Shown here: positions 5,488 to 7,436 of the stretch, piece by piece
How positions within the stretch are numbered: position 1 is the first letter of the stretch
How the letters are laid out: each line of letters opens with the position of its first letter
Origin: Streptomyces rubradiris
GTDB taxonomy: Bacteria; Actinomycetota; Actinomycetes; Streptomycetales; Streptomycetaceae
Length of the DNA stretch: 64,000 nt
NCBI RefSeq assembly: GCF_016860525.1
Contig: NZ_BNEA01000015.1
Span: 1,798,001 to 1,862,000, forward strand
Direction: 5' to 3'
Translations under genes and position numbers: made by a program
Notes under the pieces: model-generated
The model's input: only the letters and a program-made list of their open reading frames with translations
Databases searched by the model: none
Told to the model about the DNA's origin: nothing

Positions 5488-6207
5488 TTACGCGCCGGCT
5501 CCCGGCGCGGAGGCGCGCTTGGCGGTGTCCCGGCGGGTGATGGCCTCGGCCACCTCGCCGATGGCGGTGCGGACGAGGGTGCCGTAGCCGTCCTCCGGGA
5601 GGCTGGAGGCGTGCCGCCGGGCCGCGGTGATGTGTGCGGTGGCGGCGTCGAAGGAGCCGAGCCGGCGGTAGAGGTCGGCGAGGTTGAGGTGCAGGGACGG
5701 GAGGAAGCCGGCGAGGCTCAGGCCCTCGTGGTGGGCGCGCAGGCGCTGTCCGGTCAGCGCGTCGGCGGCGTCGAGGGCGCGGATGTCCCAGGCCAGGGCC
5801 TGGGCGGGGTCGTCGTAGAGGTCCGCCAGGTGGTGCGCGAGAGTGCAGCGGTGCAGCGGGTCGCCGGTCACGCCGGTCGCGGACCAGAGGTCCAGGAGCG
5901 TCCGGCGGGCGGCGGCGGGGTCGCCGGCCCGGCCCTGCGCGACGGCCCGGCCGATGGTCTCCATGACCGGGTCGGGGGTGGCGGAGGCGGGGGCGACGGG
6001 TTCCGGGGTGGCAGAGGCAGAGGCAACGGCTTCCGGAGTGGCGGAGGCAGAGGCAACGGCTTCCGGGGCGGCGGAGGCAGAGGCAACGGCTTCCGGGGCG
6101 GCGGAGGCAGAGGCAACGGCTTCCGGGGCGGCGGAGGCAGAGGCAACGGCTTCCGGGGCGGCGGAGGCAGAGATGACGGCTTCCGAGGTGGCGGGGACGG
6201 TGGTCAT
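5488..6207 (-). CDS. TPR-like protein with N-terminal decapeptide repeats
   Basis: The 239-aa protein has two parts. Residues 1 to about 80 are near-perfect copies of a 10-residue Ala/Ser/Val-rich unit (EAVASASAAP), which should be disordered and extended. From about residue 82 comes a helical domain (METIGRAVAQGRAGDPAAARR, LAHHLADLYDDPAQALAWD, FLPSLHLNLADLYRRLGSFDAA) typical of actinobacterial tetratricopeptide-like proteins. The ATG at 6207 has AAGGA upstream; starting at the internal Met would lose any ribosome site, so the repeats are probably translated. The gene begins 19 bases after the stop of the MerR-clamp fusion and is very likely co-transcribed with it. Function is unknown; a protein-protein interaction role is inferred from the fold only. 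Confidence 0.85.
   Translation of the reverse strand: MTTVPATSEAVISASAAPEAVASASAAPEAVASASAAPEAVASASAAPEAVASASATPEAVASASATPEPVAPASATPDPVMETIGRAVAQGRAGDPAAARRTLLDLWSATGVTGDPLHRCTLAHHLADLYDDPAQALAWDIRALDAADALTGQRLRAHHEGLSLAGFLPSLHLNLADLYRRLGSFDAATAHITAARRHASSLPEDGYGTLVRTAIGEVAEAITRRDTAKRASAPGAGA
6001..6180. repeat. Six tandem 30-bp units inside the TPR gene
   Basis: Six head-to-tail 30-bp units, in register with the codon frame, run from 6001 to 6180. The central three are identical and the outer ones differ by a few bases; a more degenerate seventh copy lies at 5971-6000. Unit length is a multiple of three, so copy-number change would alter the N-terminal arm by steps of 10 residues without breaking the frame. 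Confidence 0.95.
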
Positions 6208-6226: not shown

Positions 6227-7279
6227 TCAGGGGCGGTGGTCGTGCCGGACGGGCATGGCCAGGGTGGTGAGGTCGCCGTGGTCGGCGGAGCGGATGGTGG
6301 CGGGCAGGCCGGGGCCGCGCAGGTCGAGCAGCACGTCGGGGCCGACTGCCGTGCTGACGGCCGGGTAGAGCGTGGTCAGCTCGAAGGAGATCCTGAGCTC
6401 CGGCCCGGTGACGGTGGCCGGGAGCGCGGCGCCGGGGCCGGGGGCGCCGGCCGCCTGGACGTGCAGGCCGTGCCGGGACACCCGCAGCGTGCTGCGCTCC
6501 CCGGAGTGGTCCTCCAGCGCGCGCAGCAGCGGCTCCTTCGCGACCGTCACCCGGGTGCCGGCCCCGGGGAGCGAGGCAAGCATCAGCCGGTGGTCGGGGA
6601 ACCCCGCCGCGAGCAGCCGGCAGTGCCGGTCCGCGCGGTCCGCGCCGCGCAGCCGGATCGTGTGCGCTGTCGCTTCGACGCGCATGAGCGGGCTGCGGCG
6701 GATGTGGGTGAGCGCGGTGCGCAGGTCGTCGCCGTCGACCGTGGCGGCCCAGTGGGTGGCCGCGGGTTCGGCGGGGACCAGGGTGCGGGTCGAGAGCCGG
6801 TAGCGGTCGGTCGCGGTCAGCGTGACCGCTTCCGCGGACACCTCCACGCGCAGCCCGCCGAGCACCGGCATGGCGGGGTCGTGCGCGGTCGCGGTCAGGA
6901 CCTGCTCGATGGCGTCGGCCAGCACGGGCCCCTTCAGCGCGGCGAGGGGCAGGCCCGGCGCGCCGGTGAGCGATGACTTGATCACGGCGGCCTTGCGCCG
7001 CACCGCTTCCGCGTCCGCGAGGGCCTTCGCCACGTGCGCGTCGATCAGCCGGGCCGCGTCCGCGGGTCCGGCGTCGAGGACCGCCTCGACGGCGGCCAGG
7101 GGCATGCCGATCTCCCTCAGCCGACGGAGTCCGGCGGCCCGGGCCACCTGGTCGGCGCGGTAGTAGCGGTAGCCCGTGACCGGGTCCACCTCGGCGGGGG
7201 GCAGCAGCCCGGAGTCGGCGTAGAACCGCAGCGCGCTGGAGGTCAGTCCACTGCGCCGGGCGAAGACCCCGATCGGCAT
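6227..7279 (-). CDS. MerR-type regulator fused to two DNA sliding-clamp (DnaN-like) domains
   Basis: Residues 1-70 are a standard MerR winged helix (MPIGVFARRSGLTSSALRFY, YRYYRADQVARAAGLRRLREIGMPL), followed by a short coiled-coil to about residue 100. Residues about 115-350 are not an effector domain of the usual MerR kinds but match domains II and III of the bacterial beta clamp: MPVLGGLRVEVSAEAVTLTATDRYRLS (shortened: ATDRYRL at 156-162), an AAGFPDHRLM segment, LRISFELTTLYPAVSTAV, and a C-terminal LAMPVR like the DnaN end. The first clamp domain is missing. Upstream in-frame starts exist (GTG at 7297, TTG at 7318); 7279 fits the family N terminus. It heads a two-gene unit with the TPR protein and is divergent from a LacI regulator. 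The domain reading is confident; what it senses is unknown. Confidence 0.88.
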   Translation of the reverse strand: MPIGVFARRSGLTSSALRFYADSGLLPPAEVDPVTGYRYYRADQVARAAGLRRLREIGMPLAAVEAVLDAGPADAARLIDAHVAKALADAEAVRRKAAVIKSSLTGAPGLPLAALKGPVLADAIEQVLTATAHDPAMPVLGGLRVEVSAEAVTLTATDRYRLSTRTLVPAEPAATHWAATVDGDDLRTALTHIRRSPLMRVEATAHTIRLRGADRADRHCRLLAAGFPDHRLMLASLPGAGTRVTVAKEPLLRALEDHSGERSTLRVSRHGLHVQAAGAPGPGAALPATVTGPELRISFELTTLYPAVSTAVGPDVLLDLRGPGLPATIRSADHGDLTTLAMPVRHDHRP

Positions 7280-7436
7280 CAGCTCAGAGTTGGGCACGGC
7301 GTCATCGTGGGGCTTCAACCCACTCGAAGGTCAACTCCGACGGCCGGTGGCACCCATCCAGAGGTTCCGAAGTCGTCGTCGGTGCCAGTCCCGTGAATTC
7401 CTCTGTCTTCCCGCCGTGTTGAGGCGCACCTATCGT

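Follow-up and report, generated by a model that had tools for sequence, protein, structure and literature searches.

The closest described systems to the locus reported here are the regulators of the TipA class (TipAL/TipAS, SkgA). TipA, a MerR regulator of Streptomyces lividans, occurs in two forms, a long one that is the regulator and a short one that binds the ligand, and it is presented in PMC7762955 as a minimal autoregulated system. On the side of the sliding clamp, the gene clusters of griselimycin and mycoplanecin producers contain second DnaN-encoding genes, GriR and MypR, which protect the producers, and the two peptides fill both subsites of the clamp pocket, according to PMC10817943. 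Here we describe a gene in which a MerR head is fused to two domains of a sliding clamp, found in a window (the whole stretch of DNA that was analysed, 64,000 nucleotides long) of Streptomyces rubradiris, together with its relatives, which fall into three subfamilies, A, B and C.

Like the TipA class, the MerR-clamp protein joins a MerR head to a putative ligand-binding part and appears to control its own gene, but the ligand-binding part would here be a clamp instead of a TipAS domain, and the TipAS domain (PF07739) was not among the six Pfam families listed for the window protein up to E 10. Subfamily C alone resembles TipAS in that a shorter second product is predicted from an internal start, whereas subfamilies A and B pair with a separate tetratricopeptide repeat (TPR) gene rather than with a short form. 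As an actinomycete clamp relative that could bind clamp-directed peptides, the protein is comparable to GriR and MypR; it differs from them in that MerR goes unmentioned in PMC10817943, and in that no protein family recurs in more than 3 of 79 scanned neighbours of subfamily A genes. It differs from DnaN (TIGR00663) in its fused DNA-binding head, in its score below the dnaN family cut-off, and in the absence of domain I, of the ring contacts and of net positive DNA-facing helices. The pair of MerR and clamp domains is already visible in databases, in which some members are called MerR regulator and others DNA polymerase III beta family protein, and such names make the annotation of members misleading. 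No description of a MerR-clamp protein was recognised among the literature matches listed, subscription papers and preprints being outside the scope of that search.

A MerR head joined to clamp domains II and III

The gene is read from the minus strand, and the elements of its promoter, the parts of its product and the TPR-fold partner gene are placed in the window as follows.

7329..7334, minus strand: -35 element TTGACC of a MerR-type promoter, the same in all 17 subfamily A loci
7310..7328, minus strand: 19-nt spacer with the operator, TTCGAGTGGGTTGAAGCCC in the window; family form CTTCAA-N5-TTGAAG
7304..7309, minus strand: -10 element CACGAT, its A2 and T6 conserved in each of the 17 subfamily A loci
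6227..7297, minus strand: MerR-clamp fusion gene, 356 aa, start GTG at 7297, 6 nt past the -10 element
7070..7279, minus strand: MerR winged helix-turn-helix, residues 1-70 if numbering begins with the ATG at 7279 (PF13411, E 1.6e-15)
6968..7066, minus strand: long helix in the AlphaFold2 model, residues 72-104, the expected MerR dimerisation helix
6593..6952, minus strand: clamp domain II, residues 110-229 (PF02767, E 1.6e-10, and structure comparison)
6245..6592, minus strand: clamp domain III, residues 230-345, from structure and alignment; ring-interface helix shortened
5488..6207, minus strand: TPR-fold partner gene (239 aa), downstream of the MerR-clamp gene after a gap of 19 nt; conserved part about residues 70-239

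The original prediction, made from the letters alone, had read the gene as a fusion of a MerR head with clamp domains II and III that lacks the first clamp domain, and this reading was borne out. In the Pfam search the MerR domain and clamp domain II were both significant (PF13411 and PF02767), the profile matches of the window protein scoring 57.4 and 37.9 bits against cut-offs of 21.6 and 28.2, and, by Pfam, the dnaN profile and structure, domains II and III are the only clamp domains present. In the AlphaFold2 model of the single chain, the arc of domains II and III keeps the clamp's own geometry. The helix at residues 72-104 is expected, by analogy with other members of the MerR family, to be the dimerisation helix. 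The curated dnaN profile TIGR00663, with a cut-off of 137.65 bits, gave 40.2 bits for subfamily A, 45.5 for B and 114.2 for C, all below the cut-off, and by the features tested the MerR-clamp protein is a member of the MerR family and not a clamp.

Occurrence, subfamilies and origin

Protein searches returned, among the candidates scored, 1335 relatives of the window protein and 1093 of a subfamily B member. A profile (A3) built from 15 members was searched against 150 Streptomyces genomes with a match cut-off of E < 1e-80, and 64 of them matched while 86 did not. All 150 genomes gave some match at E <= 1e-20, and the further matches listed came mainly from MerR heads or from ordinary clamps, the latter covering columns 117-350. 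Of the 64 matching genomes, 61 gave a near full-length match, and three (G013, G096 and G137) a match that was partial in one frame. Subfamily A comprises 17 of the 64, namely the genome of the window and 16 others with identities of 65-74%, and subfamily B comprises 11, at 36-44% identity. From the remaining 36, 30 genes were fetched and 29 could be read, all of which show the promoter and linker of subfamily C, and ten of which were placed as C by the tree.

Outside Streptomyces, four full-length members (G198, G429, G377 and G346) were found among the matches listed for a phylum sample of 296 genomes, in which at most 7 candidates were scored per genome, so that further members may exist. 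The four belong to two other families of the same class, and one of them, G346, has one internal stop; the other matches listed were clamps (from about column 96) or MerR heads alone. In a set of 61 relatives, 6 of them with a subfamily A match, no genome of another genus matched at E <= 1e-60. A contig search returned mostly other MerR regulators, with only L003 and L004 of 80 loci matching over the full length.

In phylogenetic trees, the clamp parts of all 32 proteins formed one clade against five DnaNs (support 99/98), and the 32 MerR heads likewise formed one clade against eight other MerRs (support 93/92). One fusion event fits both, and a clamp apparently became the sensing part of a transcription factor once, as judged from these trees. 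Decayed copies were also seen, at L140, L142, L197, L198, L199 and L200, as genes with internal deletions, as genes with a broken frame, or as a partner that lacks an intact MerR-clamp gene; in one of them an internal deletion fuses the MerR start to the TPR protein.

Promoter, operator and probable self-control

A palindrome inside a spacer of 19-20 bp is the mark of MerR-controlled promoters, as stated in PMC9909328. The family promoter lies directly upstream of the gene and consists of TTGACC, a spacer of exactly 19 nt and a -10 element with A2 and T6; the palindrome in its spacer is CTTCAA-N5-TTGAAG in subfamilies A and B, of which the window's is an imperfect copy, and CTCGAC...GTCGAG in C. 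This arrangement was present in 17 of 17 A loci, in all 10 aligned B loci (of 11) and in 29 of 29 readable C genes. By script, the 19-nt spacer was found in 17/17 A, 9/10 B and 10/10 C loci, and the promoter of the tenth B locus (L138) is visible in the alignment. The promoter was also recognised by eye in four of four members outside Streptomyces, with a weak palindrome in L194. From the -10 element to the presumed start codon there are 6-7 nt, and the message is therefore probably leaderless.

The operator was searched for in 29 A and C genomes, by a pattern that would miss degenerate targets. The window's own genome (9.05 Mb) has one match with up to 3 mismatches, at window positions 7313-7334, and none for the reversed-pattern control. 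The 16 further A genomes have 18 sites with up to 2 mismatches (control 0), 16 of which are the own promoter, G111 and G002 each having one extra operator-like site with 2 mismatches away from it. In 12 C genomes there were 12 sites, all at the own promoter, against 3 control matches in 2 genomes. Since the operator is nearly exclusive to the own promoter in A and C, the own operon is very likely the main target of the regulator, and closed self-control by the MerR-clamp protein is, on these sequence patterns, highly probable. The operator sites in A and C genomes thus agree with action at the own promoter as in the TipA class. The original prediction had also suggested that such a transcription factor could couple gene expression to replication proteins. 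Broad coupling of this kind was not sustained, and regulation of replication genes is unlikely, because across the A and C genomes that were scanned the operator is almost confined to the own promoter.

A predicted internal start in subfamily C

Where the MerR head meets the clamp, all 29 C genes that could be read (of 30; L202 could not be parsed) carry (A/C)GGGAGA followed by a start codon, which is ATG in 27 and GTG in two. Carriers of the internal start are the subfamily C genes L160-L169, L201 and L203-L220, together with L195, and a C-like relative of another family has GAGGAG-N6-ATG at the same border. Over the rest of these C genes, 8639 codons contain 53 comparable in-frame sites. The Shine-Dalgarno sequence is formed by an Arg codon, which is AGG in 26 of the 29 genes, although AGG accounts for only 59 of their 1174 Arg codons (5.0%), Shine-Dalgarno sites included. 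The conserved internal ribosome-binding site and start point to translation of a clamp-only protein in subfamily C, with a predicted length of about 245 residues (244 and 248 in the two that were counted), and from this conservation we infer that the internal start is used. No conserved internal start was found in A or B, in which the best alignment column had 5 of 17 and 3 of 10 sequences, respectively.

The clamp peptide pocket

Pocket and ring interface were compared in 36 proteins, namely 17 A, 10 C and 9 of the 11 B proteins, L135 and L137 being left out for lack of a clean start. Six pocket residues (L155, T172, R176, P242, M362 and P363 in E. coli numbering) do not vary among the 36 proteins, P363 being assigned to subsite II in the list given in PMC11139829. 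In the window protein, the pocket residues of domain II are L140, T157, R159, Y160, R161, L162 and P228, and domain III ends in the pocket stretch LAMPVR (L340, M342, P343, V344), these numbers being taken partly from alignment by hand. Across the 18 pocket columns, identity between subfamilies was 0.589, compared with 0.261 for the rest of the 223 columns, and none of 20000 random column draws was as high.

Subsite I is mostly kept in all three subfamilies, the exception being R152, which is M or L in most A, F or H in most B, and L in C. In subsite II of A and B, N320 is replaced by E or D in most proteins and Y323 by T or V in most, so that ordinary clamp motifs need not bind there, whereas in C this subsite is kept, with N at position 320 in 9 of 10 and F or Y at position 323; R246 is kept in C alone. 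A motif beside the C-terminal pocket residues, RSADxG..TTL (window residues 330-341), is nearly fixed in A and B, unlike in C and DnaN, and it may mark a changed ligand.

Proposed mechanism

We put the probability at roughly 0.55 that the MerR-clamp protein is, as a whole, a TipA-like, self-controlled sensor and decoy with a disarmed clamp as its ligand pocket. According to this model, the dimer would hold its own promoter in an off or poised state until a molecule that fits the clamp pocket occupies the clamp domain, candidate ligands being a clamp-binding peptide antibiotic or the clamp-binding peptide of a cellular or phage protein. The ligand-bound protein would then kink the long-spacer promoter and its own expression would rise, and the surplus clamp-only form (in C) or the TPR partner (in A and B) would soak up or handle the ligand, in the way that TipA deals with thiopeptides. 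To us, sensing through the clamp pocket seems reasonably probable, and sequestration as the output has a little under an even chance. A monomeric sensor of clamp-binding peptides was among the possibilities raised at the outset; it is the reading that survives, with subsite I mostly kept, and the sensing itself is what we infer.

In its most specific form, the proposal would describe a widespread actinomycete sensor and sponge for clamp-directed peptide antibiotics of the griselimycin/mycoplanecin type, derived from a copy of the antibiotic target that is too truncated to function in replication and that raises its own level on contact, with subfamily C yielding a regulator and, from the same gene, a free decoy clamp; we regard this version as rather unlikely. 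The sliding clamp is among the most conserved machines of the cell, and here it would have been turned into the sensing part of a transcription factor. If clamp-directed molecules are indeed sensed, these genes could provide a ready reporter in the search for further clamp inhibitors and could point to natural products in soil that are directed at the clamp.

TPR partner, gene neighbourhoods and alternative readings

The TPR gene is next downstream in 17 of 17 A loci (in L123 as a fragment of only 39 aa), in all three A-like loci from other genera, in 7 of the 11 B loci and in none of 10 C loci. Its product was modelled as eight helices with a mean pLDDT of 83.5, Foldseek gave weak matches to this model (best E 0.011), many of which are TPR proteins, and database names for the partner are mostly hypothetical protein or tetratricopeptide repeat protein. 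In the window TPR protein the conserved part, about residues 70-239, is preceded by a repeat-rich N-terminal extension (window 6207-5990, minus strand) of near-identical ten-residue repeats (AAPEAVASAS-like), which is absent from the other TPR proteins compared. An LLxLW stretch noticed by eye in the TPR protein was dropped as a candidate clamp-binding motif because it falls inside a predicted helix and has not been retained in B.

TPR relatives are present in 140 of the 150 Streptomyces genomes. In 9 of 10 TPR loci fetched (L170, L172-L179), the TPR gene lies directly behind ung on the same strand with a gap of 0-449 nt, the identity of the neighbour as Ung having been checked in one locus; the tenth, L171, is a further TPR copy located elsewhere. 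Judged by gene order, ung and the TPR gene form a conserved core pair. Around subfamily B genes, a member of the dnaB cluster occurs in 6 of 11 loci (L131, L133, L134, L135, L138 and L141), its identity as DnaB having been checked on one. These six loci share a core neighbourhood in which a beta-lactamase-like gene (named by eye) follows, and rplI is also present in L131, L134 and L141. A recA-like gene, also named by eye, follows a subfamily C gene at L160:5259-6434 (minus strand).

The ung and dnaB neighbourhoods leave a repair or replication reading open, in which the protein senses the state of replication or repair: the clamp domain would compete with the real clamp, free clamp-binding proteins would switch the operon on, and the TPR protein would act in repair with Ung. 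The mostly kept subsite I fits such a sensor as well, as do the core TPR copy behind ung and the dnaB neighbours. However, the near confinement of the operator to the own promoter in A and C leaves little use of the signal beyond the TPR protein, subsite II is altered in A and B, the 86 genomes without a match at E < 1e-80 indicate that such a sensor is not needed everywhere, and the distance between ung and the TPR gene varies. We therefore hold this alternative to be rather unlikely.

Another possibility is that only the fold was reused, the clamp arc binding an unrelated small molecule and the pocket residues persisting as core. These residues do belong to the fold core as well, so that ligand binding is not proven by their conservation alone, and it is consistent with reuse of the fold that subsite II has changed in A and B while the RSADxG...TTL motif of the last strands is nearly fixed there. 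Against it, the pocket columns stand far above the rest of the domain also in comparison with DnaN (identity 0.576, against 0.244 elsewhere), which makes mere reuse improbable in our judgement.

The neighbourhoods of subfamily A bear on a third alternative, a guard against phages, in which the clamp part would lure phage proteins that act against the clamp of the host or make use of it, and the operon would respond. These neighbourhoods vary by locus, and besides the TPR gene few frames recur, in two or three loci. Of 100 listed frames (100-1200 aa, four per side, 17 loci), 79 were scanned, and the commonest Pfam family, the protein kinase domain, reached no more than 3 of the 79; among the 25 of 35 PADLOC families listed, none exceeded 3 members either. 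Three neighbours have protein kinase domains, which probably explains the PADLOC matches. A shared gene cluster or defence island around A genes was thus rejected, no family being found above 3 of 79 neighbours. Gp168 is presumably a phage protein. Its solved complex with the beta clamp (7evp), the patchy occurrence of the family, the lack of shared A neighbours beyond the TPR gene and a few frames, and the decayed copies (L140, L142, L197-L200) would all suit a phage guard, but there is no sign of a defence island around A loci, and a TPR partner is not known to act as an effector. A phage guard is accordingly quite improbable.

Ring contacts and DNA-facing surface

PCNA has two clamp domains per chain, as does the MerR-clamp protein. 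A PCNA-like trimer of two-domain protomers had been suggested in the original prediction, and the comparison of the 36 proteins turned against it. The E. coli beta ring is held on the domain III side by I272 and L273, according to PMC11139829. At these positions none of the 36 proteins has I, L or V: the 17 A and 9 B proteins mostly have G, E or D, and the positions are deleted in 10 of 10 C proteins. The stretch that corresponds to E. coli residues 260-286, which has 26-27 residues in five of five DnaNs, is reduced to 21 in all 17 A and to 18 in all 10 C proteins, and it has 22-23 in 7 of the 9 B proteins, the other two (40 and 56 residues) carrying insertions, so that it is shortened in 34 of 36. 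With domain III having lost its beta-type ring interface in this way, a ring or trimer is unlikely, and the MerR-clamp protein can probably no longer form one, as judged from the aligned residues.

The four DNA-facing helices, whose limits we took on assumption, together carry a mean net charge of about -5.3 (A), -2.8 (B) and -0.8 (C), compared with +1.4 in DnaN. A ring closing as a trimer around DNA is therefore very improbable: two clamp domains per chain and a modelled domain II-III arc with the clamp's own geometry would allow it, but the lost I272/L273 contacts, the shortened interface (34 of 36), the helices that are not net positive and the attached MerR head, whose dimer helix would impose two-fold symmetry, set the protein apart from PCNA. 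The net charge of domains II and III as a whole is -5.6 in A, -6.7 in B, -12.9 in C and -9.4 in DnaN; since A and B are here less negative than DnaN, the loss of positive charge is local to the DNA-facing helices and not general.
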